Positions 1,209 through 37,418 of a stretch of 64,000 bases of DNA are shown here, piece after piece. A program made the position numbers and the translations under genes. The notes under the pieces are model-generated. The model was not told the DNA's origin and ran no database searches. It saw only the letters and a list, made by a program, of their open reading frames with translations. Origin of the DNA: Tribonema minus (lineage: Eukaryota; Sar; Xanthophyceae; Tribonematales; Tribonemataceae); the NCBI GenBank assembly GCA_017506865.1, contig JAFCMP010000026.1, positions 62,001 through 126,000 on the forward strand, written 5' to 3'. How positions within the stretch are numbered: position 1 is the stretch's first letter; every line of letters begins with the position of its first letter.

Positions 1209-4200
1209 GTGGAGGCTTAAGGTTAGAATGCTCTCGACACTTTGGATTTGAATCAGGTTACGACGAGAGGAGCGACCCGCTTGTACCGTGCGTTGCGGCA
1301 GTTGTCGACGCAGTTACGTGAGTCTCGGCACCTGTGCAACAGCGTTGTACAGGCACCCATATGTTGTGCAGGTGTCAAGAGGTCGTGCAGACACATTGCG
1401 GGAATTGAGCGTCGCGCATGGCCGCATTTGTCACAGTGCTCAACGCGGCCCGTAATACCTTGGCGACGCTTGGCCAGGAAAGGCAACCTGTCATGGTATG
1501 CCCAGCTCAGAAACATCACAACAGCACATTGCGCCCACACAACGCACAAGGCCTTGAAAACGCCGAAGAAGTTGCACTTGAAGTTTATTCAAGGGACTGC
1601 GTCCTGCTTTCTATGTTTACATTGCTCAGGCCCTCAGCGATCCAAGACCAGGGCTCTCACGTCGCCTGAGAGTGCTGGTGCCGGAGACAGTCGATGACAG
1701 CGGCGGCGGCAATTGCGGCAGCAGTGGCGGTGGCGGTGGTGGCGGCCCTGAGCATTCCACGCTCGAGAGCAGTGCGTATGAAAGGGCAGGACCCGTGCCG
1801 GGGCTGGGCGTGCAGCGCGGATTCAACATGCGCCGTGGTTGACAAGTAGTGTCGGTTTAAGGAACATTGAAGCACTTCAAGATGGAAGGGCGCTTTACTA
1901 AGTATAGCAGATGCCATGTGGCGTTGCTGGTGTGGGCTCTGACGGCGGCTGCGCACACCGGCACGTGCCACAAGCAGTGGCTGTGCGTGCTGATGCATTT
2001 GGTTCGAATGAAAGTTTTCTGAAGCTTTTTTTCTGCCATGATGTGTTTGACTGCTGTGAGGGGCCTTACAGATCGAACCACCCTGCGCAGATGCAGCCCA
2101 ATGCACACGGTGCAGAGCTCACGCCTTGGTGCACCCGCTGGAGCCTGTGGCAATGATGCGGCGTGATGTCAAATGAACGCACACAGCAGATGCAGCATTG
2201 CTTATATATGTACTAATTATTGTAGACCATATGATGTCATGCCTGCACTCACAGACCTGCCAGTAACTGACATGCGTACTTGCAGGCGCCAAGCGATCGC
2301 TCGAGACTAGCTGCATGGCAAACGCCTGCAGCACGTGCGTACGCTTAGCCTAGTAGTACAGCCAGAGCGTAAATTATGCATTCACTCAGGCCGTCTTGCA
2401 GTCACAGCGGTTTATTTGCATGTACAGCATGCAGGCATGTGACAGTGCTTCACCGCTCAGATGATGTTGCCAATTTTGGCACCGTGCCGTGACGGCCTTA
2501 CATGGCACACTATTGGCAGGATTACTACGGTAGGTCACCGACAGGGTTCAAGTTGGTTGAGATCAGGGCTTCAAGTTGGGCTAGGATCAGGGTTAGATGT
2601 AACTTAAAGGTTAGGGAGTTTGAAACTACATTGGATCACACCCTGAGCCTAGGCTGACAGTGCCATGGCAGTGGGGGTCTGGATATATATACTATACTAC
2701 AGGTGGTCAGCAGCAGAATCTGATGCTGCACCTGCTAAACTTTGCATTCAAGTTGAATGGTACTACTAGTACTTCGAAGTACACCGATTTGCAGCAACTG
2801 TTGCTGTGGTCCAGTAGCCAGATGACATTGTGCCTGACCCATAGTGGGTTTGCAGCCACTGACTTTTCCAATACATTGCACAAGGCCCTGTCACTATGAC
2901 AGCCTGACAGCATGCACACACACAAAGCGAAAGCGAAGCGAGCGGTGGCCAGATTCCAAGCCCTGCGTCTGCAGACAATGTCATGTCGCAGCGCCACACC
3001 GATTGGGATCATTGTGACAATGACGTTTCTCGTCCACCTCCTGTAATCTGCAGGCTGTACTTATTGAAATGTCTGGCAGCTGGGCCAGCACATGAGCAAG
3101 TCACTGGAGCGGAGCGGGACACGGCACACTGCAGCCCGGTGCAGTCTCTGAGGCGGAGAGCTGCTCGGCTGCAGCTTGTGTTTTCGCCGGGTGGCAGTTT
3201 GCACGCGCGGCTCTGTGAAGCACCACCTCAACGCACATGACACCTTTGAGCACAACATCGTCAAGCGGGCTACGCGGCGCGCATGCTGCGCCGATACAGC
3301 AGGGGACTTGACGAGGTCTACACGCCATGCCTGTCGTCACTGGACACAATCGCAGGATGTACACAATGTCATGCTGCCGGCCGACGGACTGCGTTGCGTT
3401 TGAGGCCTCAAGCCAATCTTGGCCGGACTGCCTATGCCCCGAAGAACGCTTTTATCACCAGCCCGCCGTTGGGGAGTCACCGATTGCATTGCCGTTCGCC
3501 TGAACCTCGGTGTAACAATGATCTCTCCATTACACTACACACATTTGCGTACACTGTGACAGCGAGAGGAAGAGAGGCTGTTCCGCTGCTGCTGGGACGC
3601 TACTGCTGACGGTGGAGGTGCTGCGGAAGGCGACGTGAGTGGAAGAAAGCAATGCTGAGGACTGCGCACGCTTGCACAAGCGCGCAGACCAAGCATGGTG
3701 TGAATGCATGCTGTGCGTGTAGTCAATGCGTGCTGTATGCGCACGATACAATGATCAAGTAGAAGACGAACGCGGTAATGTATAGACGCAGAGGTTACCA
3801 GCACACAACCGCACTCCTAGTTGGCACGACGACGGGCTGATTTGTCCACTTCTTCAGCGATGCAAGGCGCGTTTGATAACACCAGCATCAGGGAAAGTGG
3901 TGATCACATCGTATTTACGCAGCGCATACTGCTACATTAATCAGCACGGCTGGGGCGTGCTGCTGCCTGTCCACGCCCGGAACGTGCCTCAACCGCTGCG
4001 GTGTTGTTCTCAGCGTCACTGGCCTGCACCTCTGTGCTCTCCGCAGCAGGCGGCGCAAGACCAAAGTAGGGCCTGGGTGAGGACTTCCTGGGGTGTGGGA
4101 GAGCCTGCTGCAGCTGTTATGACTCATGCATGTAGCAGCAGCAGTACCGGCTCGGCATGCTGTAGAAACCGCAGCAGCACTAACCCATGTAGCAGTGGAG

Positions 4201-4244
4201 GGAACAGCATCGGATTCAGACGCCGAAGACATCCGCTAAGCATC
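1209..4244. other. no recognisable gene
   Basis: Several short open frames occur on both strands, but none has convincing composition, homology or splice-phase support. The region has lower GC than the coding blocks and includes small GGGTTAG-like tracts near 2540-2620. It presumably holds the rest of the upstream locus plus the 5' flank of the protease gene. Confidence 0.5.
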
Positions 4245-7200
4245 ATGCCGGCGAGAGCGGGTGCAGCTCTGCTTCTAGTGCTCTGCAGCTCCAGAGCCCC
4301 GGGCGCGGCCGCGCAGCTGCAGCGAGTGCGCTGCCAGATCATGTTCGACGAGCCCGCCGGCGACGACCCGAGCCAGATCACCGCACAATCGGTACCGATG
4401 CAGACCATGGGCGCGGTGGCCAACACAATAATGGTCGACGACAACCACGAAGAATTCACCGTCCTGCCGGAACTGGGCGTTGCCTTCGCAAGCCTGACTC
4501 CAGAGGCCGCCGTCCTGATCTCCAAGATGCCGGGAGTCGCCTCCGTGACCGCTGCCGCCTCCGAGCGGGTCTACATCCCCCTGCCTCCTCCCGGCTTTTC
4601 TGAGCCCCCCCCTGTGCCTGTGAAGCAGGCGGATCCGGGGGGGGTGGTGGTGGCGGGGGCGGGGAGGAAGCAGATCTGGCAGTTCCCAGGCGTGACGAAG
4701 CTGCAGTGGGGGCTCCAGGCGATCAATGTGGCGAAAGCTTGGAAGAGGGGCGTGAAGGGGGGCGGGCGGCGGAGGGCGACAGTGGCAGTGCTCGACACAG
4801 GTGAGCGCGCAGAATATTGCATGCCTCGAACGCAAAAAAAACAGCTTGCACACAGAAGTCTTTTTGGCTAGTGTGGGTATGGTGGTACTGTTTGACTCGT
4901 GGCCAATTGCTGCAGCAGCGGCGAGCACGGTTATTGGTGGAAGGCACTTGCGGCTAACCACACCTTGTCACCAGAGCTCTACGATCTTTTGATTCGTTTC
5001 CATTGTACTTTATGTACTTCCGCTTGAGTGGCGGAAATCCTATTCTGCACCGCGTCGTGTACCACGCGTATGCTCCTAACAAGCTTGTTCACGCTTTCCT
5101 CGCTGGGAACCTACACACACAGGCACTACATCATGAAGCTATCTACAGATGGGGCTCAGATGAACACTGTATACATGAGTTTGGCACACAGCATAACCAT
5201 GACGAGCCTCGGTGCACCTTTCGAGGCATACACGAATCAAAGGTCGTACAGCTCTAGGTGACAAGGGATGCATATCATACCATGCATATACATGCGTATA
5301 TCCTACACCACACCATACTTAGAAAAGAGATAAGCTTGGAAGAGCTCTTGGGTGGCGATGGCGGCAGTGCTCGTCACCGGTGAGCACAGGAAACAGTGCA
5401 TGCCATCAGCGAGAGCATGGTACGCGCTCTTGGAACTGAGGCATATGCCGCCACTGATGCACTTTTTGAAGCATTTGAAGCAAGTGTTTATCAGTTGTGA
5501 AGAAGACGCCTATCGTCGCACATGAGACATCAGGATGAGGTTCGCCATCACTGGCAGGAACGTGCCCTCGCACGCACCACGTCCAAGCGATGTATAAACG
5601 TGGCATGCCTCAGTGCAGCGCCAAGCCAAACATACACTATTGATAACGCTAAAAAGGCTGCACACAGAAGTCCTTTGGCGCCTCTGGATGTGGTGGCGCT
5701 GTTTGACTCGTGGCCAAATGCTGCAGCAGCGGCGACCACGGCCATTGGTGGAAGGCATATGCGGCTAACCACACCTTGTCACCTGAATCTCTACGATTCT
5801 CTTGATCGTTTCCATTCAGACGTGCCTTACCATACTTGAAGATTGACATACTGCGATCGCCTACTTGGTAGTTGACTGTTGTCTTCAAGCAAGTCGGTGT
5901 AGGTGCCTCTGCCCTAGACACAGGCAGCACGACAACTGCAATGGGCACCAGATTCAATCTACTGATTCCTGTAGAAGATCCTGCACTATGCAATACCTAT
6001 TGTCATCATGCAATAACTATTTCTCAGTAAGCGCTCCTGGGCAGCAAAGGAACAGTCTGCACATTACTGTTCTGCGGCAGTTACACTTTTGTTTGTGCGC
6101 AACAAACAAGTTTGATGCCGTGCTCGTGGTACCGCGCCACAGTGCTCCGCAAAAATGCACTGTACAGTACAGTAGAGTACAAGCAGCGGTATTTTCAAAA
6201 CAATGGCTACATTGGGACACTAAGAAAAGCTGAGGGCTGTATGACATATAAACAAAGGACAAGGCACTCTTTTTGTGCCGCAGTGCCTCTTTGCTGAAGG
6301 AGTACGTGTTTGAGCGAACGCAAGTATTCTGACAAGGCCCGCAGCAGCCGAGTGCGGCAGTGCGGCACTGATGAACTGCCCAGATGGTCGCTGCTGCATG
6401 GCTCAGCACGGTACACCTAAGTCCAGCGCAGTTCAGCTCCATACGCTCCAGCTGCAGCATTCGTTGGCGCTCGTCAGAGTACGCTCCTGTCCACAATATC
6501 ACTACACATCTGTGGTGAGGGGCGGGGCCGGCGACAATGACTGAAGTCTTAGGGGAGCACAGTGGCGGCAGCGGCACTGCTCAGCAGCAGCCTTGCTCAG
6601 TACAGCACACCTCAGTGCAGCGCAGGTCAGCGTCATACAGCGCAGTCTCGGCTATTCCAGCCACTGCGGCGTGGCTGAGCTGGCAGCAACGGGGAAGGGG
6701 GCAGGGGGGGGGAGTCACCAATTTGAACTTCACACGCAGAACGTCTTTCGTGGTGTACTTCGACAAAGTGCCTGCCTTAGTAAACACACACGAGACTGAT
6801 GGTGCCTGAAATTGTGCTTGGGTTTAGGATTAGGGTTAGGGTTAGGTGTAGGCCCTCACCACTGACAGGCCCCGTCCGGTACAGAGAACACTGCGCTGTA
6901 CTGCAGTCTGTGGCCTATCTCTACGGATGGGCACCATTTGGTGCACCTCGCGTATCATTGAATACGTTCCGCAACGCGCATGGGCTGATGCGCATGGCTT
7001 CGGTCGGTGGGCGCACGTATGACGAGGCCTGTGCGTGGGCGGGGCCTCCCGCGCGCAACTAGGGTTAGGGTTAGCACGTCACCTGCGGATCACTGCCGCA
7101 CCTGAACTGATGAATGCTACCACGGGCACTTGAGTGCCCTTTGTTAGGCCTGTGTGAGAGGAGCCACGTATTGAGTTGACGACATTTGCCAGGAGCCAAG

Positions 7201-10200
7201 CCAAATCAACATGCATAATGTTTCTGAAAAGATTTCAAGCAAGTGCTTTCCTTCCCCCAAAACTGGCAACAGTAAAAAAGCTGTTTCAACGCTGCTATAT
7301 GCACCCGTTCATGATATTTTAAGCGCAGCTCATTGCCACTCTTCAACTGCAGCAGCTCGACAGCGCAAATAACTGGTTTCAAAGCTCCGAGAACGAGTAT
7401 TTGTGAATGCGCTGCAGTGAACGGCCTGACGGCGCGCCACGCTGCTGCATCAAACTTTAGTAGCAGACAGCACCCTCAGCACCTGGATATGGTCGAGATT
7501 GAGATGCAAGCAAGGCCTTGCTGAACGCTCAGCGCCATTTGTGATGGCGGCCTTTCCATGTTCACTTCAGCGCAGTGAAAAGGTTATCCTGTCGCGGGGG
7601 GCTTGGGGGGGAAGCGCGCGAGCACTCTCGCAGTGGCGGCGAGAAGTGCACTAACAACATCGTTGATGAGGCGGCAGCCACGCAATGCATGAATTGACGA
7701 CCACGTATGGCACGTCATTATTCAATTCTATTAAATGCACAAAAGTCCATACGGCAATGGTTGTTGCCACGTGCTCGAAGGCGGTTTTGGGTCGCGACTA
7801 CCGTTGCTGGGGTTAGGGTTAGCATCAACGGTAGAGCAGCGAGCAAGCGCGAGGGCAGCGTATGATGTAAACGCCTACATGCCTGAATCTCAGTTGATCC
7901 CCCCATCGCAGCCGCCAATTCTATCTACATCTGGCTCTCAAGGCAACTAAACCCGCCAAGCTTTTGTTTCTTCCGCCCCCCCCCCCCCCCCCCCGCAATT
8001 TAGCGCAGCATCGTCGTCAACGGCAGCACGCTGCGGCTTGCAGATCCGGCACACCTTCGTGTCTAACGTAGCTGCCAGCCCCCTCGCCTGCCACTCAACC
8101 CTTCAAGTTACAACACCAATCGCACATGTGCTAACAGACCCGCCCCCCCCCCCCCCCCCGCCGCCCTAGGGTTCTGGCTTGAGCACCCTGCCATCAAGCG
8201 CAACATCGACTTTCAGAACAGCAAGTCGTTTGTGAGCGACGAGGGCCTGCAGTTCCGCACGGGGCGCTCGGAGAACTCGTCGGGCTTCAGCCACGGCACT
8301 TGGGTCGCGGGCATTATCGCGGGGGCAGATCGCGCAGGCGCCACCCCCATCGGCGTCGCCCCGGAGTGCAAGCTGATCCTGATCAAGGTATTGCACAGCG
8401 TATGGTGTGTCATGCTTGAGCAGAGAGGGGCCTTGATGGACAGTCGAAGGTGCCATGACCAAGTGTTGACAGTGCTGATAGCGTACTTCTTGAACCTATG
8501 ATATGGATCGCGGGGGCGGACAGCGCAGGCGCCACCCCCATTGGCGTTGCCCCTGAGTGCAAGCTGATACTGATCAAGGTACTGCAATGCGTCTCATAGC
8601 ATGGGGGGGGCATGATACTCAGATCGAGGTACTATGATGTAGTATTGGAACTTCAAAGTGCTGACTCCATACCACTTGAAGTGTACATCGTGGATTGCGG
8701 GGGCGGGCCAGGCGGATGTCACCCCCATCAGCGTCGCCCTGGAGTGCAAGCTGATACCGATAAAGGTATTGCAAAGCGCGTCACACAGCAGCAGACAGGG
8801 CTGTCGATAGTGAGGTGAAGGTACCATGACACAGCATTGAAAGTGGGAACAGCATTTTTTGGTATACGCCCCCCCTTTGGCGTCGTGACGGAGTGCTAAC
8901 TGACATTGATGAGGGTATCCCACAGTGCGTCACATGTAGGACGCTAAAAAGTTTGAACCAAGAAGTCTTTTGGCTCTTGTAGATATGGTGGCACTGTTTG
9001 ACTCGTGGCCAGTTGCCACAGCAGCGGCGACCACGGTCATTGGTGGAAGGCATTTACAAGTCACCACACCTTGGCACCTAGAGCTCTACGATCTTTTGAT
9101 TTGTTTCCATGTAGCATGGGAGGTGCCTTGAAAGACATAACAAGGTGCCATGAAGTGCATGGACTGTAGCGGATATAAAAATGGAGGCGTAATAGCGTAA
9201 TAGCCTAGCCTACTAATAGGTCGCTTCGCGAGCAAGTGCTTTGAAGTACATGGCCATTGACATTATCGCGGGAGCAAATTGGCATGGACATTCAAAAACC
9301 TCAACTTGAGAGACTCGTGCTCACCAGCGATAGTACCAACTGCAACTGGAGGACCCCGAAATGCATGGTCAGCGTGCAGAACTCTCCCAGCGGTCCGTAC
9401 CTTTTTTTTTGGGGCAGAATTGCGAGGGCACCGAAGCGCGGGCGCTGTTGTTGTCTTGGCAGTTTGCGCACGACAACAGTTTTGCGCCAGTGGAGTACCT
9501 TCCATACAAGGCGTGATGTCCAAATCAGCACTGAGGCATTCGTCACAGGTGTAGATGTGGACTCCGGTAGTGAGCTTGACGACAGCCATCAGGGCTCTGT
9601 CGTGCCATCAGGCGAGAACTGGTAAAAGCACGCGTGGCCTGTGCAGAGTTCACAGCGGTACACGTGGTACACAGCAGTACGCGCGGCCTCGGCGTGCCCG
9701 CGCCCCGCTCGCAGCCTCGCTCGCGCGTCTGCCTGTCCTCAATCGTCTGGGCTTTTTGTGCCCTCGTCGAGCATCAGCACGGAGAGTGCCTCTTGTCGTG
9801 GCAGTACAAATGGCGGGTTGTCTCAGTGAGTGATGGCGCCTGATGCAGCTCACCACTTCAACAACAATGCTTCCCGTGCATGCTCCCATTCCTTGCCGAC
9901 GCCTTTCATGGCGAGGGACTGAATACAACGCGTCAGTTCTTGGACAGAATACGATGCGTCGATTCTTGGGGAGAGAGGGAGGGAGAGGCGACTTGTACAT
10001 TCAAGTACTTGTCTGGCGGCGCCAAACCGTACGGGCAGTAGCGGGGGTTAGGGGTAGGGTTAGTGGGGGTTCTGAGGCGGACGAAGCCCTCCTGGAAGCC
10101 CATCTGTAGCTGGTTTGGCGGTCAGTGACCGTCTGGAAGTGTAGGTGGCGCATGTGCTACACCGTTGTGATACAGCAGTTGTGACACAGCACATGTGTAC

Positions 10201-13191
10201 TTGAGTGGGATATTATGTATTTCATAGAGTTTTTGCCCCTCAAGCGGAAGTAAATAAAGAACATTACCAGCATGCGGCTGCTCACACACCCCTGCGGCAC
10301 AGGCGCTCAAGGACAACGGGAATCTGGTAGTACGCTTGCCCGCAATCACATGATTTTTCTTTGCGGCCTAAGCGATCATCAGCACAGAGTACTTGCGTAG
10401 TTGAAGTACATCACTGAGCGAGAATTATTGAAAAGTGCATGAGTAGCATGCAGCCGCTCACACAGACCCCCTGCCGCACCCCCCGCGCCACAGGTACTCA
10501 AGGACAACGGGCACGGGCGCACGGAGGATGTTATTAAGGGCATTGTGCACGCCGTCAAGAGCGGCGCGGACATCATCAACATGTCGCTCTCCGCGGTGCG
10601 TACGCATTTGCTGACTGACGCAGAAAAAAAGAACAAGTAAAAAAAACAACAAGAAAATGTGCTTTTCGCCGAGCTGCTGCATGGGAGTGCTGAGCTTCTA
10701 TCTGTCGCTGACTGCAGATATTAAGGGCATTGTGCACGCCGTCAAGAGCGGCGCCGACATCATCAACATGTCGCTCTGTGCAGTGCATACATGCGCGTCC
10801 TGAAAGCCCGTCCGTCTAACCCTCACCCTCGTTGCGCACGCTATTGTCCTAGACTAGTCCTAACCCTAACCCTTAAAGCCGATACTCTCGCATAATAGGT
10901 CTACGAGGTACATGCACTCCTGAGAGCCCACCTCTAGTTGGCTTGGCGGTCAGTTCGACCGTTCGATAGTGTGGATAGCGCATGTGCTACACGCTTGATG
11001 CAGCACATGTGTACGGCTGCATTTTTTTTTTTCCTTTTCCTTTTTCATAGGGTTTCCACCCCTCGAGCGGAAGTAAATACACTACAAACGCGGCCGCTGA
11101 TGCGCATGGCACAAACGCAACGCGTTGCGGCACAAACGCAATGCGTTGTGCATGCTGCTAGCAGGGACAGCGTGCACGAGATCAGTAGGGGATGCACGAT
11201 GTATAAGCGCGCTCACGCACTTGTAGGCTGAACAGAACAAAAGCCATTGTTTTCAACTGTTGTTTGATAAATGAACCCGCGAACTTTTAAACTTCAACTT
11301 CAATGCTGACGCTCCCCTGTGTCGCTCGCCGCGCAGGGGCCCGCGCTGTCGACGAACGCGCCTGTCGCGAAGGAGTTTGCCATGGTTGCACGCACGGTCG
11401 CGTGGGCACTGTCTCAGGGTGTGACCGTCGTCGCCAGCGCCGGCAACGCCTCGCTCGGGCAGCCGCCTTTCAACTTTGACGACCCGAAGGACCGGGTCGT
11501 GTGGCCCGCGGGGCTGCCAGGTATGTTTTTCGAAGTATGATACTGCTTCTTATACCTACCCTGATGCGGCACCTACTGCCCGGGCAACGCCTCGCTCGGG
11601 CAGCCGCCTTTCAACTTCGATGACCCGAAGGACCGGGTCGTCGTGTGGCCCGCAGGGCTGCCAGGTATGTACGCCGTTGCCCCGATACCTACCCTGATGG
11701 CAACGCCTCGCTTGGGCAACCACCCTCGGATCTCGATGACCCAAACACGCAGGTTGTGTGGCCCGCAGGGCTGCCAGGTATGTACCCCATTGCTCCTGAT
11801 ACCTACCCTTAAACGTCGCCTGCTGCCCGAGCAACGCCTCGCTCGGGCAACTGCTCTTTGATCTCTATGACTCAAAGACACGAGTCGCGTGGCCCGCAGG
11901 GCTGCCAGGCATGTATGCTCTTGCTCCTGATACCTACCCTGATGCAGCGCGTGCCGCCAGAGTCACGCCTCGCTCCGGGCAAGTGCTGATTGATCTCGAA
12001 GAGGCGAGGGACCGAGTCGTGATCTCGAGGAGGCGAGGGACAGAGTCGTGTGGCCCCCAGGGTATGTACGCCATTGCTCGTTATACCTACCCTACTAGTT
12101 GATATCGACGCCCGCGATGAGGACTGAGCACGGGGCGGCAGTGAGGGACGCACAATGCCCGTTGCTTTATTTACGTTTACCAATCTACAAGCTGAAGATA
12201 CAGGGTAAAGTGATTGAGATCGCTTCGCGCTGAGAGCACCTTCTTTCGTCTTGCCGGTCCGCCGTCGAGCACAGCGGACGCTGTACGACAATGAGCGTGG
12301 CTGAGCACTGTGTCATTTCGCGACGCGATATCAGTCCCTCTTGTAGCGTGCGCCATGAAATTTTGCTCGTGGGCTTAGGGTTAGGATTAGGGTTAGGGTT
12401 AGAGTTAGGCTGTCTCACGCCCTCGTCTAACATTTCCTCGAGTTGTCACCTCTCAACGTTGCGGGGCTAGGGTTAGGGTTAGGGTTAGGGTTAGGACTAG
12501 GGTTAGGGTTGCTGAGGGAAGCAGACCACGAGAAATTGTTATCCTGTCTTACGACGGGGCTTGACCAATTTTTTCAGCGGTTATCACTCCTCAACATGAA
12601 GGGTAGAGAGCAGCTGAGGAAGGTATGCCAAATGATTGTGCCCTTGTGTGGTGCTGCTGCTACTGCATGCGTGCGGTGATCGCCCCAACTGCGAATGGTG
12701 CTTCAAGGCTGCTGTCAGGCTTTTTTTTTTTCGAGATGCCATTTTTACGTGCCTGTCAAGCACCATACCTCTCGTTCTGCCCCCCCTCTCCCCCTTATCC
12801 CCTTCCCTTCCCCCCTCTCCACAGGCGTCGTCGCGGTCTTTGCAACGGGCCCTAACAACTGGTACAAGCAGCGCGCTCAGGATGTCAAATCATTCTGCCC
12901 CCCCCCCCCCCCCCCCCACCCCCACCCCCCCCGCCCCAGCAACCAGTTTAACATTCTGCCCCCCCCCCCCTTCCCCTTCTCCACCAGGCGTCATCACAGT
13001 CTCCGCGACGGGCCCCAACAAGTGGTACAAGCAGCGCGCTCAGGACGCCAATCATTCTGCCCCCCCCCCCCCACCCGCCCCCCCCCCCCCCCCGAAGCAA
13101 CCAATCTGCCTTCAAGAGGAGAGATATGAAATCATGTGCCGGACATGCCATGAACAGCAAATAACACAATTACGCCACGATTTACATCCCG

Positions 13192-13225
<34 letters not shown>

Positions 13226-16200
13226 TCTCACACAGGCGTCATCACCGTCTCCGCGACGGGCCCCAACAACTGGTACAAGCAGCGCGCTCAGGGCGACGTG
13301 AATTTCGACGCGTACGCTCCCTACTCCAACTACGGGCTCTCCGTCATTGACATGGCTGCGCCGGGCGGCAACGCGGGCCTGATTCTCAACAGCAACAACT
13401 CTAAGTGCCGCGTGAAGGAGCTCAAGGGCGCGAAAGTCGGGTGCGTGCTTCAATTTTTTTGTGTGCCACAGACGGGACACTCATCGCTGTTTGGGAACCA
13501 GGTCTTGAAAGTCGCTGAAATCACGGGCATTGGGGTGGTGCGGACAAAGACACTTCAAATAATGAACGCCCTGAAGGCAAATACTCCCAGGGCCGCATGA
13601 AGGACCTCAAGGGCGCAAAAGTCGGGTGCGTTCTTTGTTCCTTCTGCCATAGGGGGGGGGAACTCATCACCACTTTCAGAACTAGTTCTTTGGGAGTCTC
13701 TGAAATCACGGGCCTTCGGGTGGTGCGGACAAAAATCTCAGAGACCCTGTATGGCCTGATGCTGGACAGCAACTCCTCCAAGTGCCGCGTGAGAGAGCTC
13801 AAGGGCGCAAAAGTCGGGTGCGTGCTTCTTTTGTTTCCTGCCATAGGGGGGGGCGGGCTCATCATCTCTTATGCCATAGGGAGGGAACCACTGTTAGAGA
13901 ACGAGACATCGGAAGTCGCTGAAATCACGGGCATTGGGGTGGTGCAGACAAAGATACTTCAAATCATGAACGCCCCAAAAGCGAATGCTCCCAGTGCCGC
14001 ATGAAGGAGCTCAAGGGGTGCAAAAGTCGTGTGCGTTCTTAGTTCCCGCTGCCACAGGGGGGGGACTCGTCATTGTTTCTGCCATAGGGGGGGAACTCAT
14101 CACTGTGGATTAGAGTACTTTTGAAGTTGGTTAGAGTACTCTTGAAGTTGCTGCAAATCAGGGGCATCTGTCAGCAGGGCCGCGCAGACAAAGATGCTTC
14201 ACAAGATGCTTCAAATGATGGAGCGGCCTGACAGCAGATACACCAACCTACCGTGTGAGAAAGCTCTAGGGCGCAAAAGTCGGGTGCGTCCCGCACAAAT
14301 ACAGTTTTGGACTGTCCTCTTGTCACCGAGATTGATTACCGAAAGCTTCAGCATGGCCCTACAGATGAAGATGCTCTAAACAATGAATGTTCTGATGCTG
14401 TCAGCAACTATGTACATCGAGTACCATGTGAAGGAGCTCAAGGGCGCAGACGTTGGGTGCGGTTCAAAAACAGGGGGGGGGGTTCATTGTTCACCTGTCG
14501 CCATAACTGGTACCATGAAGTCACTGAATTTATGGGCATCTCTCAGCATGGTGCTACAGACAATGACGCCTCCCATGATTAAAATGGTATGGCGCTGGTC
14601 AGAGCTTACGCAAGGCAAGGTGCCTCACGAAAGAGCCCAAGGGCGTTCAAGTCGAGTGCGCGCAAAAAATAGAGGAGTTGTAAGCTTTCTTGTCACCAAG
14701 ATTGATTACTGAAAGCACCGTTGCCCATCAGCGTGGACCTACAGACGATGATGCGCCAATTAACGAATGGCCTGACGCTTGCCAGCAAATACGCCAGCTG
14801 CCGCGTGAGGGAGTTTGAGAGCGCAAAAAGCGGGTGCGTTGAGCGGGAGGAACTCATCACTTGTCCCGGTTGTTGCCAGTTCCAGCATCTGTGGTTACTT
14901 CGACGTATCACAGACTGTTGTTTTACCTTGGCTCCAAACTTAACGCAAAGTACAGCACGAATAGCGTGCAGGATAGACAGCGTCACCGAAGCGACACGCG
15001 TTGCACGCCACGTTCCTACGACAGGCCTTTGCAGCATGGGGTCACTTCTGGCACTGGCGCACACAATATCCGTGGTTCTCTCGGAAGGCCTTCGCAATGT
15101 TCAAGGCGCAGTCTCTCTCAACAGGTCGCGCCAAGACACAACCTGCTTCACACGCCGCTTCCATGTGATAAATGCGTATGCCAGGACCCAACCCAGGCAC
15201 AACACGACTCGCAGCTGGTGCATCGTAGAAGTGATCATTGAGAACCGAGGCGCAAAAGACGAGCCGCGACGTCAGTGTCCACCAGCCTGAGGACTCAACC
15301 TCAACATGAGCTGAGCTGAGCGCTGTCACGCGCTGCCACACCGCTCCGCAGGTGCTCCGCGCTCGACTGGATCTACGCGGCGTGCTGCTACAACAAGAAG
15401 TCTGGGTTCTACAGCAGCTGGCTGCTGGGGACGTCCGCGAGCGCGCCGTTCGTGTCCGGCGTGGCAGCGCTCATCACATCGCAGGCGGAGCGGCGGCTGA
15501 AGCCCACACAGATGGCGCGCCGCCTGCGCATGGTGAGTATTCTACTTCAACTTTGAAGTATTAACTTTTGAAGTATTTTGGCTTGTTGAAAAGTCGTATC
15601 TGGCGTAGCAGCGCTCAGAACATCGCAGGCAGAGCGGCGGCTCAAGCCCAAGCGGAACTGTTTTGTGCGGGGTGGCAGCGACCTTCAAATCGCAGGTGGA
15701 ACGGCGCCTGACGCCCGTGCAGATGGCGCTTCGGCTTCTGACCGGCTCACTTCAACCTTGAAGTACTACAGTGCTGAAAGTTTAGTGTGTGGGGCGGAAG
15801 CAATCTCCACGTCGCAGGCGCCAATCGACAAGGTACAAACGGCACGCATACATACCCCTTGCGCTTCACCAACCAATGACGCCACTGCTGCGTTTCCCGG
15901 GCTTCTCGCTTCGTGGCACGCGTACTGGTTAGGGTTTGGGGGAAGCCGCCAACCACCGAGCAGTGCCATCTGCCAAGTCCAGCCTGTCCCCCGCTGGCTG
16001 TTCACGCCAATGGCAGTGCGCCTGATGCGCATACATTCAAGTTAAATCAAGTACTCAAACATGGACGTATACATGCAGGTGCTCCCCTGTTTGCGCAATA
16101 AGATGCACATACATCGCAGTACCCAGACATATAGAAGTACATATACATGCACATGCTCCTGTTTGAGTCATAAGAGCTGTTCATACCCCCCTACAACACC

Positions 16201-16606
16201 TCGTCCTGCACTGCGCCCAGGAGACCCCCGTTGCACAGTGCTGCGGAATCAGGCTTTCGACGCTGGCCTACCAGCTAGTACTCTGCTACAGCCGTGTGCC
16301 TAGCAAGGAGTGCTGCCGCACACGCTGTTGCCCCTCCCACACCCCTTGCAATAACTCCACACTCTTCACGGCCTGTTCCCCTTGTGGCGCGAAATCAGGC
16401 TCTGAACCCCCCGCTGCCTCTCCCGGACTCTTCGCGACAGCATCACTCTCCATGAGGCTTGTCCCCCTTCTGCAAAATCAGGCTCTGAACCCCCTGCTGA
16501 TGACTGCCCGCTGCCCCCCCAGGCCACGGACGACGTTGGCCAGGAGGGCCCGGACCCCCTTTTTGGCTACGGCGTCATCGACGCGAGCAAGATACTGCGG
16601 AAGTGA
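4245..16606 (+). CDS. secreted subtilisin-like serine protease (peptidase S8), seven exons
   Basis: This encodes a predicted endopeptidase of 509 aa. Exons: 4245-4800, 8170-8387, 10494-10595, 11337-11520, 13236-13440, 15352-15532, 16523-16606. Every junction is GT-AG and the phases (1,0,0,1,2,0) join without a frameshift, ending in TGA. Residues 1-24 form a signal peptide (Arg, then a Leu-rich core, then GAAA). Residues about 30-125 resemble an I9-type inhibitory propeptide. The catalytic set is complete: Asp184 in VAVLDTG, His227 in HGTWVAGIIAG, oxyanion Asn329 in ASAGN, Ser450 in GTSASAPFVSG. The substrate is unknown; the signal peptide suggests secretion or vacuolar delivery. The start at 4245 was chosen because it heads the signal peptide; the frame is open upstream to 3873, so a longer N-terminus cannot be excluded. 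The introns hold many partial copies of the adjoining exon ends. Confidence 0.93.
4820..5003 (+). repeat. dispersed ~180-bp intronic repeat, copy 1
   Basis: Runs from ATGCCTCGAACGC to TTTGATTCGTTTCCATT. Its conserved core includes GACTCGTGGCCAATTGC, GGTTATTGGTGGAAGGCA and TAACCACACCTTGTCACC. It lies in intron 1 of the protease gene, 20 bp after the donor. It has no ORF of its own and its origin is unknown (SINE- or MITE-like in size). Confidence 0.85.
5330..5379 (+). repeat. donor-side copy of protease exon 1 end
   Basis: Repeats the last ~45 bp of exon 1 (AGCTTGGAAGAG, then GGCAGTGCTCG, then a CACCG|GTGAGCAC donor in place of CACAG|GTGAGCGC), followed by a similar intron start. Several in-frame codons are lost, so it is not a usable exon. 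Confidence 0.75.
5643..5818 (+). repeat. dispersed ~180-bp intronic repeat, copy 2
   Basis: Same element and orientation as at 4820. It follows the exon-1 junction copy at 5330-5379, so this copy probably arose by tandem duplication of exon end plus intron start rather than by independent insertion. Confidence 0.85.
8500..8920 (+). repeat. donor-side copies of protease exon 2 end
   Basis: Three decaying copies of the exon 2 tail (IAGADSAGATPIGVAP, ECKLILIK) each end at AAG|GTA or a derivative, near 8578, 8765 and 8914. Exon 2 itself ends at 8387, giving intervals of about 191, 187 and 149 bp. Identity falls with distance: the first copy keeps the frame, and the last has stops and indels. A further trace (ATTATCGCGGGAGCAAAT) is at about 9260. 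Confidence 0.85.
8938..9112 (+). repeat. dispersed ~180-bp intronic repeat, copy 3
   Basis: Same element as at 4820, sense orientation, inside protease intron 2. It retains GACTCGTGGCCAGTTGCC, GGTCATTGGTGGAAGGCAT and CTACGATCTTTTGATTTG. Confidence 0.85.
10071..10256 (-). pseudogene. antisense fragment of the F-box-like family (exon 4 plus intron 3 part) in protease intron 2
   Basis: Read on the minus strand, this matches the exon 4 region of the triplicated gene at 30139-30325 and 36070-36260. After an acceptor-like CCAAACCAG the frame gives QLQMGFQEGFVRL, comparable to QLYVGLQQDFVRL (copies A and B) and QLLIGPQEDFVRL (copy C). The protein similarity despite DNA divergence suggests the exon was once under coding constraint. 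The 5' part ends in the GCGGAAGT hairpin repeat. Confidence 0.65.
10713..10784 (+). repeat. donor-side copy of protease exon 3 end
   Basis: Repeats GGGCATTGTGCACGCCGTC, GCGGCGC and CATCATCAACATGTCGCTC from exon 3, with the donor degraded (GCAGTGCATA in place of GCGGTGCGTA). It encodes IKGIVHAVKSGADIINMSL in frame. Confidence 0.85.
10908..11080 (-). pseudogene. second, more decayed antisense F-box-family fragment, in protease intron 3
   Basis: Resembles 10071-10256 (TTGGCTTGGCGGTCAG, GCGCATGTGCTACAC, then the hairpin repeat GAGCGGAAGTAAAT). The exon-derived part is largely eroded. The two fragments flank protease exon 3 in the same orientation, so they may reflect one insertion later duplicated locally. 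Confidence 0.55.
11560..12061 (+). repeat. donor-side copies of protease exon 4 end
   Basis: Four tandem copies of the exon 4 tail (GCAACGCCTCGCTCGGGCAG to GGGCTGCCAG|GTATGT) end at 11664, 11777, 11908 and 12060. The true exon ends at 11520, so units are about 113-152 bp. The first copy is nearly identical (an added GTC codon). The third has changed its donor to GC (CCAG|GCATGT). The intron part TACCTACCCTGATGC repeats with each unit. Confidence 0.9.
12370..12515 (+). repeat. interstitial telomere-like GGGTTA tract
   Basis: Two clusters of (GGGTTA)n with variants (GGATTAGGG, AGAGTTAGG, GGACTAGGG) at about 12375-12410 and 12466-12510, inside protease intron 4. Similar short tracts occur at 785-1130, 6824-6850, 7061, 7810, 10040 and 16930. 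Confidence 0.85.
12829..13056 (+). repeat. acceptor-side copies of protease exon 5 start
   Basis: Two copies (from about 12825 and 12988) repeat the C-rich tract, the CAG acceptor and the first ~57 bp of exon 5 (GCGTC..GTC through TGGTACAAGCAGCGCGCTCAG) before running into another poly-C tract. They precede the full exon 5 at 13236. Both keep an open frame and a consensus acceptor, so they are plausible decoy 3' splice sites. Confidence 0.9.
13590..14840 (+). repeat. seven donor-side copies of protease exon 5 end
   Basis: Copies of the tail (TGCCGCGTGA, AGGAGCTCAAGGGCGC, AAAGTCGG|GTGCGT) reach their donor-like points at 13626, 13818, 14031, 14284, 14457, 14656 and 14834. The real donor is 13441, so spacing is 173-253 bp. 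The intronic part (GAAATCACGGGCATTGGGG, ACAAAGATACTTCAAAT) is repeated too, which shows that whole exon-end plus intron-start units were duplicated. The copy ending at 13817 keeps the longest coding stretch (LDSNSSKCRVRELKGAKVG). Confidence 0.93.
15590..15835 (+). repeat. donor-side copies of protease exon 6 end
   Basis: Three decaying copies of the exon 6 tail (GGCGTRGCAGCGCTCA, TCGCAGGCRGAGCGGCGG, CAGATGGCGC) at about 15597-15655, 15668-15740 and 15785-15831. They follow the true donor at 15533. The catalytic Ser segment is not included in any copy. Confidence 0.75.
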
Positions 16607-18120: not shown

Positions 18121-18374
18121 GAATTCAGAAAGGCCTCAAGGGAGGCTAAGTCGCCTATGCGATCAAAAAGGTTGTTTCAACGCAGCAGTCTGCACTGTGC
18201 CCTAGGAACGTGGACATCGGCGGTGCAACACAGCCCAGCATTTGCGCTCCGTGTATGTACGCCATGATGCGCTCGGCCAGCTCCCGTGCCACCATCATAC
18301 TCAGCTCAATGAGAATCTGACGCTTACCAAGCCCGGCCTCGCGCAACACATCTGCCTCGCCCCCCCTGAGCACA
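18121..18374 (-). mobile_element. 3'-end relic of the OTU/RT retrotransposon, inverted
   Basis: The minus-strand frame here (ADVLREAGLGKRQILIELS, ending GHSAD) matches the last ~75 residues of the retrotransposon protein encoded at 24700-24926, followed by its 3' untranslated end (AAAGGCCTCAAGGGAGGC in plus orientation). It is 5' truncated at CTGAGCACAGTGCG and abuts the full-length ORF in opposite orientation. Divergence shows it is older than the 25007-26497 copy. Confidence 0.85.
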
Positions 18375-21300
18375 GTGCGTCTGTACGTATGGACAATGGG
18401 TGTGCTGCCTGGCGAAAGTCGTGCTAGCGATAGCGGCGCAACGATGTCAAGCAACGATCGTGTGCCCAGCACACCTGGCAGTGCCGCAGCTGCTGTCGCA
18501 GCGGGCGCTCAGTCTAGCGAATGCCCCAGGGACCCGACGGGATCACACTGGCAAGGCCTGCTGGGGGCGGCTGGCGCACTCGCGCGCAGGGTACGTGCAC
18601 TGGCCCTTGCCCCCAATCGGGCACGCGTCACGGTGCTTTGCGCTTGGCCGACGGGTACCAAGCTTGGACCCTGCCGCACGTCACGCCGACTGCATATGCG
18701 GCCGGCGCCCAGCGACGCGCCAGCAACACAGACCCTGCTGGGCCGGACTTCCTGCGCACCGCTGGTGAGTCAGATGCATGACCTGACGGTCACGTTCAGC
18801 TTGCTCTCCCTCCGAGAAGAAGGTAATGACCTGGCAACGGTGTTTGACCAACTCTCCCTTAGGGAACCGGTCGTTGCCAGGTCGCCTCGCCAGCCAGCCG
18901 GGAAACGTGGTGAGTCAGACGTAACGCAGGCTGGTGATAACAGCACCCACGCAACAATGACCGAGACAGCACCTGTCACGGCTATGGTTGCCAGTGGAAA
19001 GCGCAGTCGACGCAGAGGTAAACACAGACGGCGGACGCAGGAGCGACAGGCCCAGTGCGACAATTCTCGTGCACCCCTGGCACCAGCCACCACACCGCCG
19101 AGGGGCGGTGCCTCTGCCCCCTCAGCACCAATATCCGGGCCGGCGAAGGTCACCACCGTGACGGTGGCGACCCGGATACCCTCAACCGTGTGCCATACAG
19201 TCACCGTGGAGGAGCAGCAAGACGCGCTGGCAAAAGCCACCAACTATGGTTTTTCCACTTGGCACACGGGCCTGCAGGCACTCCACAAACAGGCGCTTGG
19301 GGAAAACACAGCGACGCTAGCACGTGGTGGGGAGCTTCGCCCCGTGAGCAACGTGGGCAACGGCAACTGCCTGATTCATACAGCTCTACACGGCATAGAC
19401 AGCGTCGCAGTTGAGCACGGACTGCCGGCCCCAGCACTGGTGATTGCCATGCGAGAGGCACTGCTGGACGGGATGGTGGCATACGTCACGCAGGGGGCGG
19501 GCAAACAAGGGGCCAGCATGTCATCGATGCGTCAACTGACCGCGCATGCAGCAGCCCAACCTGCGTGTACACGTGAACAATTCGACACGTACGGGACACG
19601 CGCTCGCTGCCTCGCAATCGAGTACGGCACAAATGAAACGGACAGCGCGGACAGCGGGCACACGCTCCTGCTGCAACGCCTACAGGAAGAGGGCGTGTGG
19701 GGACGGCCCCTCGGTTTGTCTGTGTGGGCCATTGTTGCAGCGGTCTACGCGGTCTCGGTGACGGTGTGGCAGGCCGAGCCTCAGGCCACTGGCAGCACGC
19801 AAAAATCAACAGGGCTGGTGCTGGCACAACTGATGGGGCTGCCAGCGGTATTCGCACCGGCAACTCCAGCTCAGCCTGACTGCCATCTGGATGTGCTGTG
19901 GACGCCGCCTGGGCTATATACAAATGTGGGACACTTTGAACTGCTTGTCGCCCCTGCGGCAGCTCCGCCCTTGCCAACCACTATGACAGCGTCGGCGACC
20001 ACTCAAGCTAACAGCACCCACATCACGGCTCCGAGTCGGACACAGCCCCGTACTGCGCTGCAGTTGCCACAGCAGCCTGAGCCACTGAGGTGTCCTTTAT
20101 GCACACTGGCATTTTGGCAGCTTGGTCAGAAAGAGGACAGCAAACAGCGAGGCAAACTGTCAGCTGCGAGCCGCATGGCACCGGTAGTGGCCCACTTCAA
20201 CGGTGGTAGCTGCACGAGGTCGATGCTGAACCCTGAGGCGAGCACATCACACTGTCAGCAAAATCTGGCGGCAGCATACGCCAAGGGCATCCGGCAGCAG
20301 GTTGATCACGACCCATCCGGTGACCGTGCCCCTTCAGGCAGCAGTACCTGCAACACTGGGGCACACCATGCCAAGCGTGTGCAGGAGATGAGCACCATGT
20401 ATGGTTGCACGGCAGAAGACTTCCTACGGGCGGTAAGGAAGCTGAGTGCATGCACAGGTGCCTGCGGTCTGGTCCATATGTCAGCCAGCGCGGGGCAGAG
20501 GCAATGCGCGCTGACCTCGCCATGCCACACGTGTCGACGGAATGGAAGCGCCCCCACGCGCGCACGCCCGGCAGTACCCCCGGGCCAGTCCGAGGGCGGG
20601 GGTGCGGGTAGCGACGGCGCGGCCGCGGCGGCGGGGGCTGCCGCAGCGACACCTCCAAAGCCACCGGCGGTGCCGGCTAGTGGCGCTGCCAACTCAAAGT
20701 CCAGCAAGAAACGCCCGGCGGCCACGGCAACCGGCGCGCAACGCCGGCGCCGAACGGCAGCTGCTGCAGCACCGCCTGGCAGCGCCGGCAGCCGCACTCA
20801 GTCTAACAGCCTAAGGCTGCAGGACAGCAGCCCCCCCCACGGGACGGCCGTGGGATGGGCGGACATGGACTTGGACCCGCCGGACGATGCCGCGTCACCG
20901 CCCCCCCCGACCACCACCACCAGTGGCAGGCCCTCAAAGCCCCAGTCACGAGCATCCCTGGCTTGGGACCTCTCGACGCCCTCGGTCGTCCACGCACTTG
21001 ACCAGACCAATGAGGCGGATCTACTGCTGCTACGGTTCACCACGACTGCCAACCCCTTCCGCACTCAGCTGCAGTGCACCCAGTGGGCACGGCTAGTGGA
21101 GCACGCCACACGACTACTGGCGGACGCCACAGACAGTGCACGTGAGGCGGCACGGGTGCGCCTCCACCATGGTGCCGGGGCGTTTGCTCATCAGGTTTCT
21201 CAGACTCTAGTGCAGCGCGGCTACAGGCTGCTGCACCTGCTAGCAGCAATGGCCTTTGGTAGGCAACCGGAGGGAACCGGTATGCCGCCTGCGGCCCGGC

Positions 21301-24300
21301 TGGCAGCGTTGCTGTCTGGCGACTTTGCGGAGCTACTGAGAAAGACGCTGTCAGCAGCAGCGGCGCTGCGGGCCCCCAAACCAAACAACGCAGCTACGGC
21401 GTCGGCACAAACGAACTTCGATGCCGACTGGACGGAGGCTGACTCCAGGCAGCAAACAGCATGCGCTGCCCTCTCAGGCAAGCGACGGGGGGTAGGCCTG
21501 GCTGCCGCACGACTAGAGGCGCGTGAAGCATGCGCCCCAGCAGACGAGGTCACGGCACAGGTGCTGGCAGCAAAGCACCCTGAAACTGGCACCCGGCCCG
21601 GGGTAGTCGATACGCCAATGGAGCAAGTGCGCGGCCTGGTACGCGACGCCCGGCGGCACTGCTTGCACGGCGCAGGGGTGGCAACGACCGCCGGGCCCGC
21701 TGGCAGCGGCAGTCCCGTCTTCGAATCGGGTCAGGCGCATGATCGCAGCGATAGGCCTGAGGATGCTGCCAGCGCAGCCGGACGGCGCCTCGAGGTGGAG
21801 GCGACAGACATACTGTCGACCTTGTCCGCAGCAGGGGCGGGGAAGGCAGGAGGGCTGGACGGCCTACGCTATGAACACCTCTTGATGGCCGCTGGGCCTG
21901 GTGCACCAGTGAAAGCAGCCACCCGCCCCGTGGGCAGTGCCTCGCCAGGACTAGCTGGTGATTCAGAATCGGATGTGATGGAACCGGCATTCGCCCATCA
22001 CCTGGCCAAGGTGTTCACGACGCTGCTTGTTGAGCCCGAACTGCTGCCGGAGCAATCGCAACGGCTTCTCCGCGCCGCGGCCCTCTCAGGCATAGGACAG
22101 AAGCGGCGTCCGATCGCCTGCTCCAGTGTCTGGCGCAGACTCCTCGGGTCCACAGCGGCACGGGGTGTCAAGGGCAAAATATCGGGGCTGCTGGCCTCCA
22201 TGTCGCAGTTTGGCGTAGGATACCGGTCTGGCGTCGAGCATGTGGCAGCGCGCGCGCGCGTGTGGCACGAGCTGTATGGCACCACAATCCAGCTGGACTG
22301 TGAGAACGCATTTAACAGTGTGGATCGCGCCGCCATTGTGCGGGGACTTATGCTCTTCTGTCCGGAGCTGCTCCCGCACTTTGAGTCCGTATACTGTGGT
22401 GACACTGCCCCAGAGATGCGAGTGGAGGTGAACGGTGAAGCTCGCATTATCTGCTCCCACCTAGGGTGCCAGCAAGGGGACCCTCTAGGGCCGCTGTACT
22501 TTGCAGTGGCAGCGGCATTCCTACTCTTCTACCCTGATGGAGTGAGTGCGACGCCCGGCAGTATGCCGGCCTACGGCCACAGCACAGCGGAACCGCCAGC
22601 CCCGCACTGCGCTTTCCTGGATGACCTCAACGTGCTGCAAGCTGCCTACTTCGACGATGCAGCGGCCGCTGGGGTGGCAGAGGTGATCCGTCGGCTTGCG
22701 GCAGGGGGCCTACGCGTTCGACCAGACAAGTCGCTGGCCATTGCCATGCGCGGCACAGTGTTTGATGAAGCGGCCAGAGCACGCCTGCGCGCCCTTGACA
22801 TACCGTTTGTGGACGCCACCATGCCAGAATCCAGTCAGGGCTTTACGTCGGTCGGGGTACCGGTAGGGCACCCAGCCTATGTGCATGCTGCCATGAGCAA
22901 GCATCTTGTTGACGCAGGGACATGGCGATTGTCGTGGCAGCTAGCTGGGATGGCGCGGCATCACCTACAGGCAGCACAATTCATTCTGCGCAGGTCACTG
23001 ACAAAGCGCATGGGCTTCTTAGCTCGGGTCGTTGACACGGCTTTGAGTGAGACATGGCTGCACGCATTTGACGGGTTCTGTGCATGGACGCTTGAACGCA
23101 TGCTGCACCTGCACGGCTGCGCTACCGCGGCAGTCATGAAGTCACACCTGCTGGCCGCCTGCACTGCTGGTGACAATGAGGTAGCCAGCAGTGGCAGCGT
23201 GCTGGTATTGCCGCGCTTGGGCCCGCCAGAACTCACGGACATCGCAGTGCCACTGCGGGCGTCACGGTTGCCGGAGCGACGAGGCGGTCTGGGCATGCCG
23301 CTTTTGGGGCTACTGGCACCAGCCGCATACACGGCCCAGGCATGCACAACACTGCGGCCTGCAATAATTCATGCCACTGTGGCAGCAGGGGCCCTGAGGC
23401 TCGGCACTGACGAACACGGCGCAGTCACCTGGTTCGCGCAGCACTCATGCGCAATACGCGAGGACCAGGGACTGCCGCCAATCATCGAGGCCGTGCGACG
23501 CTCTACGCGAGCGCTGACAGCTGATGGCGGCGAAAAATCACGCACAGCTGTGGCCGAGCAGCTCCCAGCATCGTTGCTACGGTGGGCAGCGGATACAACG
23601 GCCGCAGCGTCGACGCTCCCCACTGCGGTGCAAGCGATCTACGCCGCAACTGCCGTCACGGAGACGGGGACCACTGAGCCAGCCCCACACACCCACGGCA
23701 TTGTGCCTGGCGCCGAGGCGGCCGCTGCGGCGGCGACCGTACCTGGCCCTCAAGCCGCTGCCGCGGCTGCCTCTTCCACGCCCGCTAAAACACAAACTAG
23801 CGCGGAAGAAAGCAGCTGCAGCGGCGGGCAGGAGGACGACGACGACGACTGGGAGGCCTATGCTGACGAGATCTGCAGAAAGGTAGTGCCCCGCCGCCGG
23901 CGCGGTCACTTCACGCACGGACTACAAGCCGGCCTTTCAAATGTTCTTCGACGTCAATACGAGGACTGCCTGGTGGAGGACCTAGAGGCTGCCTCGGCTG
24001 GTGCCGTGGGCAAGCCGACGCAGGCTACACTTATTGGTGACTTGCGTGACACCAGCCGCCGCCGCCAACAGGCTAGCGCGCGGGTCCTGGCGCAGCTGCG
24101 CAGCCAGCGTGCGTCCGGGGCAATGGCGTGGATGAGCGTGCCACCCGCTGCCAATGACCGCCCGGGTGCGGCGCCCATGTCCAGTATGGCAGCAGCCACG
24201 ATGATTATGGTTGCGATCTTTATAGACGGGTGGGGCATACAGGGCGAGGTGTGCCCATGGCGGTGCAGTGACGTGAGCCCCACCTCCACGCATGCGATCA

Positions 24301-24926: not shown

Positions 24927-24990
24927 GCTGCTGCGTTGACGCAAGCTTTTCGATTGCATAGGCAACCCGGCCTCCCTTGGGCCTTTATAA
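18375..24990 (+). mobile_element. full-length or near full-length RLE-type non-LTR retrotransposon
   Basis: It comprises the long ORF plus a short 3' untranslated end, TTGGGCCTTTA, at about 24987. The 3' end is defined by comparison with truncated copies at 18121, 25020 and 37419, all of which stop near GGGCCTTT. There is no poly-A tail, as is common in RLE elements. The 5' boundary is uncertain (18375-18444). I found no target-site duplication. Confidence 0.8.
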
Positions 24991-25090
24991 ATACAAGTCC
25001 ATACGTACGTATGGACTTGTATTTATAAAGGCCCAAGGGAGGCCGGGTTGCCTATGCAATCGAAAAGCTTGCGTCAACGCAGCAGCCTAG
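24923..25090. repeat. perfect 168-bp palindrome joining two tail-to-tail element copies
   Basis: The symmetry axis lies between 25006 and 25007 (TCCATACGT|ACGTATGGA). Identity is perfect outward to 24923/25090, where a 3-bp indel starts; the arms then continue as diverged inverted copies. The innermost ~40 bp (ATAAATACAAGTCC and its mirror) lie outside the element 3' end. Confidence 0.93.
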
Positions 25091-26497: not shown

Positions 26498-27079
26498 GGT
26501 GCATCTGTACTTGCCATGATCATGTCCAGAGGTTTGCTTTCTGGAGCTTGTCGACGTAGAGGTGAATACATGACCGTATTTTCGAGGGCTGGGGAGGCTC
26601 TGCACACCACTCAAAGCGATACAACTTTCACATAGAAGCTATTTGTTGATATTTTTTTAAAAGACAAAATGAATGCAACGTCTTCAAAAGAAGTGGGAGA
26701 TCCGGCACACGCATACAGCTTGTGATGTTGACGCTGTATCATTGATATTGATCAACGCAACGCGCTTGGAAACTGGCAGACCTGGCGCGCGCATGTCATG
26801 CACGCTCGTGATGTGAACAGGTCAACCAGTGCGAGTGTGCGCGCGCTGGTGGTCACTCCACACTCTTAAATTGACCTTTCTTGCTTCTTGACTCCCCGAG
26901 AGAGTTCCTGATCCCCGAGAAACATTTATTCGCGGGCTGAATGAGATTTATTCGAATTCACGTGGCGAACGATAACAACAGAGAGGTTGGACACACCTTG
27001 AAGGATAGAAGCCCCGTGTGTGATTGCTCAGTAAGTTCTTTGAATTCAGCTCTTGACACTAGTCGTCGACGTCCGAGCG

Positions 27080-32420: not shown

Positions 32421-32500
32421 CTCAGCTCAATGAGGATCTGACGCTGAGCAAGCCCGGCCTTGCGTAACACATCTGCCTCCCCCCTCCTGAGCGCTGCGTC
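32421..32500 (-). mobile_element. short retrotransposon relic upstream of copy B
   Basis: CTCAGCTCAATGAGGATCTG through CCTGAGCGCTGCG matches 25207-25285, the region coding for the ADVLRKAGLAKRQILIELS segment of the element. It is truncated on both sides, with the left edge inside the coding region. Confidence 0.8.
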
Positions 32501-37341: not shown

Positions 37342-37418
37342 ACCAAGTGGATTGGTGCAATGACCAGCAGCCAAAGCAAATCAGATTGCAGCCGCGGCAA
37401 AGTCCTTGCTGAAGTACT

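Follow-up and report, generated by a model that had tools for sequence, protein, structure and literature searches.

The window analyzed here is a stretch of 64,000 nucleotides from the yellow-green alga Tribonema minus (contig JAFCMP010000026.1, positions 62,001 to 126,000 of the forward strand), and toward its left end lies an S8 protease gene whose introns carry degenerate copies of the gene's own splice junctions. Seven exons are joined through GT-AG introns into a single open frame, and the product matches the subtilase domain (Pfam PF00082, E 2.3e-45). Among the 120 public protein matches listed there is no near-identical model of this protease, the best having 37% identity. The exons are as follows.

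4245-4800, +, protease exon 1 (open frame, GT-AG joins, PF00082; donor at 4801)
8170-8387, +, protease exon 2 (open frame, GT-AG joins)
10494-10595, +, protease exon 3 (open frame, GT-AG joins)
11337-11520, +, protease exon 4 (open frame, GT-AG joins)
13236-13440, +, protease exon 5 (open frame, GT-AG joins)
15352-15532, +, protease exon 6 (open frame, GT-AG joins)
16523-16606, +, protease last exon (four candidate starts, of which 16523 was chosen)

The junction copies lie between them.

5354-5404, +, exon 1 end and donor, one weak copy (strict alignment, profile search)
8507-8636, 8694-8828, 8870-8937, +, exon 2 end and donor, three copies (self-BLAST, strict alignment, profile search)
10719-10790, +, exon 3 end and donor, one copy (self-BLAST, strict alignment, profile search)
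11573-11676, 11698-11785, 11818-11918, 11954-12076, +, exon 4 end and donor, four copies (self-BLAST, alignment, profile search)
12781-12883, 12958-13047, +, exon 5 start, two acceptor-side copies (self-BLAST, alignment, profile search)
13576-13705, 13753-13871, 13978-14105, 14227-14293, 14392-14516, 14616-14663, 14769-14840, +, exon 5 end and donor, seven copies (self-BLAST, alignment, profile search)
15598-15655, 15664-15768, 15786-15820, +, exon 6 end, three copies (self-BLAST, alignment, profile search)

Same-strand copies after exons 2–6 and before exon 5 are visible in self-BLAST, and the exon 1 copy was found only by more sensitive alignment, with a score at the threshold of 44 (it was left out of the protease array test below). 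Strict local alignment gives 1, 2, 1, 3, 6, and 2 donor-side copies after exons 1–6 and two acceptor-side copies before exon 5. A profile search adds the weaker copies at 8870-8937 (E 2.5e-10), 11954-12076 (5.7e-8 and 3.2e-6), 14616-14663 (4.9e-7), and 15786-15820 (3.4e-4), and the totals of 1, 3, 1, 4, 7, and 3 donor-side and two acceptor-side copies reproduce those given by the sequence-only reading, a preliminary inspection of this DNA. Side-by-side pieces were counted as one copy (11954-12021 with 12021-12076, and 13978-14073 with 14072-14105), and the start of the working intron itself was excluded. Only the profile-added copies are independent finds, because the profiles were built from the strict-alignment copies; shuffled-intron controls (ten per profile) returned 0 to 2 matches at E<0.05.

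As first described, the copies keep the strand of the gene, are arranged in tandem, straddle the junction, and lack the exon middle; the part of the exon that they retain is its last 26–92 bp. The unit size of 110–250 bp proposed at that time holds roughly, with offsets of 141–248 bp for the primary units, but not for the second exon 6 copy, which lies only ~67 bp past the first. In this gene and its three paralogs each copy matches a single side of an exon with its junction, not a full exon with both splice sites, and whole-exon duplication, including mutually exclusive exons, was rejected on these grounds.

The window holds other repeated sequences as well. Poly-C runs are present at 12898-13223, 5′ of the acceptors of exon 5 and its copies, and telomere-like TTAGGG tracts occur within genes at 12375-12510 and 60966-61011, with similar motifs elsewhere in introns. 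A dispersed repeat of ~166 bp is found at 4839-5004, 5651-5816, 8946-9110, 61380-61559, and 62057-62167, always on the + strand in the window and apparently intronic, and has at least 41 matches genome-wide on both strands (40 of 2735 first-look candidates scored). Its occurrences in introns 1 and 2 were considered as a component of the arrays and rejected; it is a separate element.

The T. minus assembly (158,181,000 bases in 554 contigs) contains three paralogous proteases, modeled from homology and splice sites (L042, on the reverse strand, L043, and L044), and these carry junction arrays too. Intron positions differ among the four genes (e.g. after LPG in the window gene and ~5 codons later in L042 and L043), and L044 is without an intron equivalent to the one between exons 3 and 4 of the window gene. 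Kinesin genes, located by PF00225 (132 matches), provide a second family; the array tests thus cover two gene families of one genome, with junctions that are homology-based and, in the kinesins, approximate.

Across the four proteases, 23 of 29 local tandem arrays span a junction, compared with 18.7% expected (p 2.7e-12) from a simulation in which duplications that fall inside an exon or span two junctions are discarded. The exon 6 array of the window gene was scored as junction-spanning from alignment, its BLAST match ending short of the junction; if BLAST crossing alone is counted, 22 of the 29 arrays qualify at a margin of 1 bp, 19 at 8 bp, and 18 at 10 bp (p from 3.8e-11 to 3.2e-7). Kinesin arrays were counted between neighboring motor-domain exons in two groups, the first consisting of four loci picked because short pieces of them showed arrays and the second of six loci picked by exon number only. 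In the second group, whose selection took no account of arrays, 13 of 17 are at junctions (16.7% expected, p 9e-8), and in the pre-selected group 14 of 19 (12.2% expected). These kinesin counts are lenient, accepting either the end of the homology hit or a refined splice site, because some introns gave no acceptable splice pair; with the raw hit end as junction they become 13/19 in the first group and 10/17 in the second (p 1e-4), and with refined sites only, 9/12 and 3/3. Within the introns covered, nine of the ten kinesin loci have one or more junction arrays, and L050 has none. The sequence-only reading had proposed comparing boundary-spanning units with random placement, and the comparison, made in these two families, shows an excess in both.

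Duplications might instead arise at random along genes, with selection removing those inside exons so that the junction-crossing ones survive and catch the eye. Few duplications are seen in exon interiors (3 of 276 exon-middle positions, or 1%, in a crude scan of kinesin pieces), some arrays lie wholly within introns, and the copies largely behave as unselected relics, all of which would be anticipated on this explanation. However, a null that forbids exon damage predicts just 12–19% of arrays at junctions, and the excess persists when all exon sequence is masked. With exon bases removed from 48 introns containing 50 arrays, 20 start within 15 bp of a junction (3.3% expected, p 3.9e-17) and 30 within 50 bp (10.6% expected); omitting the pre-selected kinesins (36 introns, 36 arrays), 16 are within 15 bp (p 3e-14) and 23 within 50 bp. 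The excess therefore reflects more than selection sparing exons, and we consider random duplication quite unlikely as the explanation. Masking likewise rules out detection bias from conserved exons. Array coverage is 23–38% up to 500 bp from a junction and falls to ~10–18% at 650–1150 bp, and local tandem arrays account for 37% of the bases in 40.7 kb of introns, a figure that includes the four loci picked for arrays. The four proteases, the array-blind kinesins, and the exon-masked test together bear out the proposal that repeated local duplication is concentrated at junctions and lengthens introns.

The duplicated units have a characteristic shape. The exon part has a mean length of 68 bp at donors and 55 bp at acceptors in the 34 arrays whose junctions could be placed, the median offset of units is 150 bp, and the exon-side breakpoints are less spread than if placed uniformly, with a standard deviation below that of all 5000 uniform-breakpoint simulations (Kolmogorov–Smirnov p 0.007); the proteases taken alone give a weaker result (p 0.023 for length, 0.079 for relative position). 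Both sides of introns are affected, with 14 donor and 8 acceptor arrays among the 22 that are strictly aligned. In proteases and kinesins alike the copies are head-to-tail on the same strand, as in small tandem duplication by end joining. At junction pairs that are at least 93% identical the intron parts have already diverged, and the breakpoints, whether blunt or with microhomology, are unreadable.

The order of divergence suggests where new copies come from. In 12 of 15 arrays, divergence is lower in the copy nearest to the working junction than in the most distant one (Wilcoxon p 0.0017). Of 92 changes at codon positions 1 and 2, no more than 15 are common to copies, compared with ~30% expected were all copies able to duplicate (P 0.012), and of these 15, nine are to the same base and six to different bases. 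Judged from these alignments, copies seem to stem largely separately from the working junction, with repeated seeding pushing older copies outward.

The descent pattern bears on the main rival explanation, that exon edges have some feature of DNA or chromatin, such as a step in base composition or a positioned nucleosome, that eases duplication without any involvement of splicing. Such a feature would suit both the involvement of donor and acceptor sides and the preferred distance of the exon-side breakpoint. Copies with nearly the same DNA nonetheless seem less prone to duplication than the working junction is, although this is not decisive, and protease gene ends carry arrays in 0 of 7 cases compared with about half of junctions (22/42, or 23/43 if the acceptor side of the first-found exon of L043 is included), a weak contrast because a start or stop codon is not the end of an exon. 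A comparison with intron-poor kinesins (one array in 8 pieces) was not used, the pieces having been chosen after arrays were known to be near absent there. We regard an edge property independent of splicing as unlikely, though it deserves more weight than the other rivals.

Divergence was examined in a strict alignment set of 22 arrays and 55 copies. Working exons differ from their copies at 5.8%, 6.5%, and 20.0% of codon positions 1, 2, and 3 and at 14.8% of aligned intron positions, and copies differ from each other at 10.9%, 10.4%, and 22.6% of the codon positions and 15.8% of the aligned intron. When changes are polarized within those arrays that have at least two copies, those assigned to the working copy number 4/599 at positions 1–2, 15/297 at position 3, and 22/497 in the intron, and those found in single copies number 77/1760, 61/871, and 69/1387, respectively, such that in copies the rates at positions 1–2 and in aligned intron are similar (p 0.44). 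Frame-breaking gaps are present in 20 of the 55 copies. The donor GT is kept in 31 of 34 aligned copies and the acceptor AG in 17 of 19, about as would be expected without selection by an estimate from ~8% change per site per copy. The pattern fits a constrained working copy with largely unconstrained duplicates, which look mostly like non-functional relics; the suggestion that the copies form a store of decoy sites is not supported by these rates, gaps, and splice dinucleotides.

Taking these results together, we propose that working splice junctions of multi-exon genes in Tribonema minus are recurrent sources of short tandem duplications whose copies decay in introns, a reading to which we assign a probability of roughly 0.55. 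The duplicated unit would comprise the outer ~65 bp of the exon and some 45–200 bp of intron. A duplication crossing a donor would leave the first copy in use and one crossing an acceptor would leave the last, so in either case the spare copy would fall inside the intron and the messenger RNA need not change. Later rounds would begin mostly from the working copy, shifting older copies outward and lengthening the intron, and the copies would then decay. The working junction may be favored on account of its transcription and splicing, for example through R-loops or paired-nick damage nearby, and breaks with complementary overhangs could be filled in and end-joined to give tandem duplications. 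Fill-in of breaks with complementary 3′ overhangs followed by joining is described as a source of small tandem duplications (PMC8355091), and promoter R-loops in human cells are described as terminating at the first exon–intron junction (PMC5705216). As the putative molecular trigger we favor breaks that are tied to transcription or splicing and mended by fill-in and end joining. A further step, that splice-junction use in itself causes mutation through transcription- or splicing-coupled tandem copying, with introns growing inward from their edges and holding a layered record of past junctions, is put forward tentatively, at somewhat less than even odds.

Several results weigh against this proposal or limit it. 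Arrays off junctions make up 6 of 29 in the proteases and 5 of 19 and 4 of 17 in the two kinesin groups, and two arrays in the window gene (6390-6638 and 16360-16499) contact no junction. The crude scan of 30 kinesin pieces finds 6 of 43 junctions covered (14%) compared with 10% of flank positions (184/1830), and alone would not show the effect; its flanks include other, unannotated junctions or exons that could not be placed. The distance gradient is weaker over all copies (permutation p 0.034), copies sometimes duplicate too (the exon 4 acceptor array of L042 holds a copied two-unit block), and a similar gradient and pattern of descent could be produced by gene conversion of the copies from the exon. 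As to neutrality of the copies, nonsynonymous and synonymous differences (pN 0.064, pS 0.25) give a pN/pS of 0.25, there are only 2 stop codons in 1022 codons, and position 3 exceeds positions 1–2 even among changes found in single copies (p 0.005), an excess that older changes in the working copy can cause. CpG or base composition is insufficient as a cause of the silent bias, since position 3 still exceeds positions 1–2 outside CpG. Exon parts differ by 10.7% and untruncated intron flanks by ~20–27%, more than twice as much, for which the likely causes are searching through the exon part, which biases in the same direction, and gene conversion from the exon. Weak constraint or gene conversion thus stays compatible with the pN/pS and flank results.

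The mostly silent differences, scarce stops, and position 3 excess are what would be seen if copies were retained as useful, either as spare splice sites or as translated alternative exon ends, and two public protein models do take copies as exons. Most of the silent differences are, however, explained by the working exon, and the frame-breaking gaps, the intron-like rate at positions 1–2, and the unexceptional retention of splice dinucleotides speak against it; we think a useful role rather improbable.

A different template is conceivable for the junction-centered units proposed here, in that pieces of pre-mRNA held by the splicing machinery might be copied by reverse transcription and inserted at breaks in the gene that they came from. 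Units centered on junctions and keeping the strand of the gene would follow, and the window contains a 2201-codon open frame (18321-24926) with a weak reverse-transcriptase match (PF00078, E 1.6e-6, 28.4 bits, below the cut-off of 29.6). Such copies would have to land always beside their source, head to tail, which is easier by duplication at the DNA level, and an RNA template appears improbable. The arrays could also be birth remnants of introns formed by tandem duplication of exon segments (the Rogers model). Intron positions differ among the paralogs, and intron ends are slightly more like the end of the previous exon than expected (14.1 vs 12.9, p 0.036), but the intron start shows no likeness to the start of the next exon (own pairs 12.9, other pairs 12.7, p 0.20), and the copies hold intron sequence beside exon sequence; this content of the units makes the birth-remnant explanation highly improbable.

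Intron lengthening is usually ascribed to transposons and random insertions. No description of the present pattern was found in the open-access literature searched, but several known systems come close to it. Intron gain by tandem duplication (Hellsten et al. 2011 for ATP2A1; potato RdRp, PMC4974935; reviewed in PMC3443670) is alike in being a local direct duplication in a gene, with splice sites within the duplicated segment and the protein unchanged. In the ATP2A1 and potato RdRp cases (PMC4974935, PMC3443670), however, a new intron is made from exon, whereas in T. minus existing introns repeat their own junctions, apparently unused. A known case of several tandem copies in one intron involves a short exonic unit in two genes, unlike the longer exon-plus-intron units at many junctions seen here. 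Small tandem duplications by fill-in and end joining (PMC8355091) are similarly head-to-tail direct copies of short stretches, but their units are mostly <100 bp, at induced or natural breaks, and the text consulted makes no link to splice junctions. Introners (PMC9860276) also have a large effect on introns genome-wide, but are dispersed and create introns, whereas the T. minus units are private to each junction: an exon 4 query of the genome, the only unit searched, gives 7 matches, of which four are local and three paralogous, and an introner-like element family common to many introns was rejected from this query. The statement in the sequence-only reading that no known process predicts such copies is thus too strong, as junction-crossing tandem duplication is known; the unusual part is its concentration and repetition at junctions. 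If the link to splice-site use is true, mutation by this route would track the function of genes, and the evolution of silent sites and introns would be recorded in each array in datable form.

There is also a consequence for annotation, as junction copies appear as translated sequence in public protein models of T. minus. Two public S8 peptidase models (P0001 and P0002) match their loci at 98–100% over their best exons. Compared with homology-based models, P0001 contains a single 62-residue insert and P0002 contains four inserts with lengths of 22, 53, 15, and 18 residues (108 in total); junction copies coincide with four of the five.

Elsewhere in the window, BLAST finds further tandem arrays at 55–64 kb with acceptor- or donor-like signals at their edges, which point to a second gene with an inferred 116-bp exon (59874-59989) flanked by arrays on both sides; its features, without homology support, are listed here.

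59070-59922, +, second gene (inferred), acceptor and exon-start copies 5′ of the inferred exon 59874-59989 (BLAST, edge signals)
59932-60721, +, second gene (inferred), exon-end and donor copies 3′ of exon 59874-59989 (BLAST, edge signals)
62588-63855, +, second gene (inferred), copies of a probable exon end with donor at ~62653 (BLAST, edge signals)

By 4-kb tiles there are 7 local arrays in 4001-16000 and 10 in 56001-64000, compared with 2 in the transposon-rich 20–52 kb. A long palindrome at 23523-26497 is 97.7% identical to its reverse complement across 2982 bases, and the interval 26564-44729 holds three related direct repeats of ~6 kb, pieces of which are 76–92% identical.

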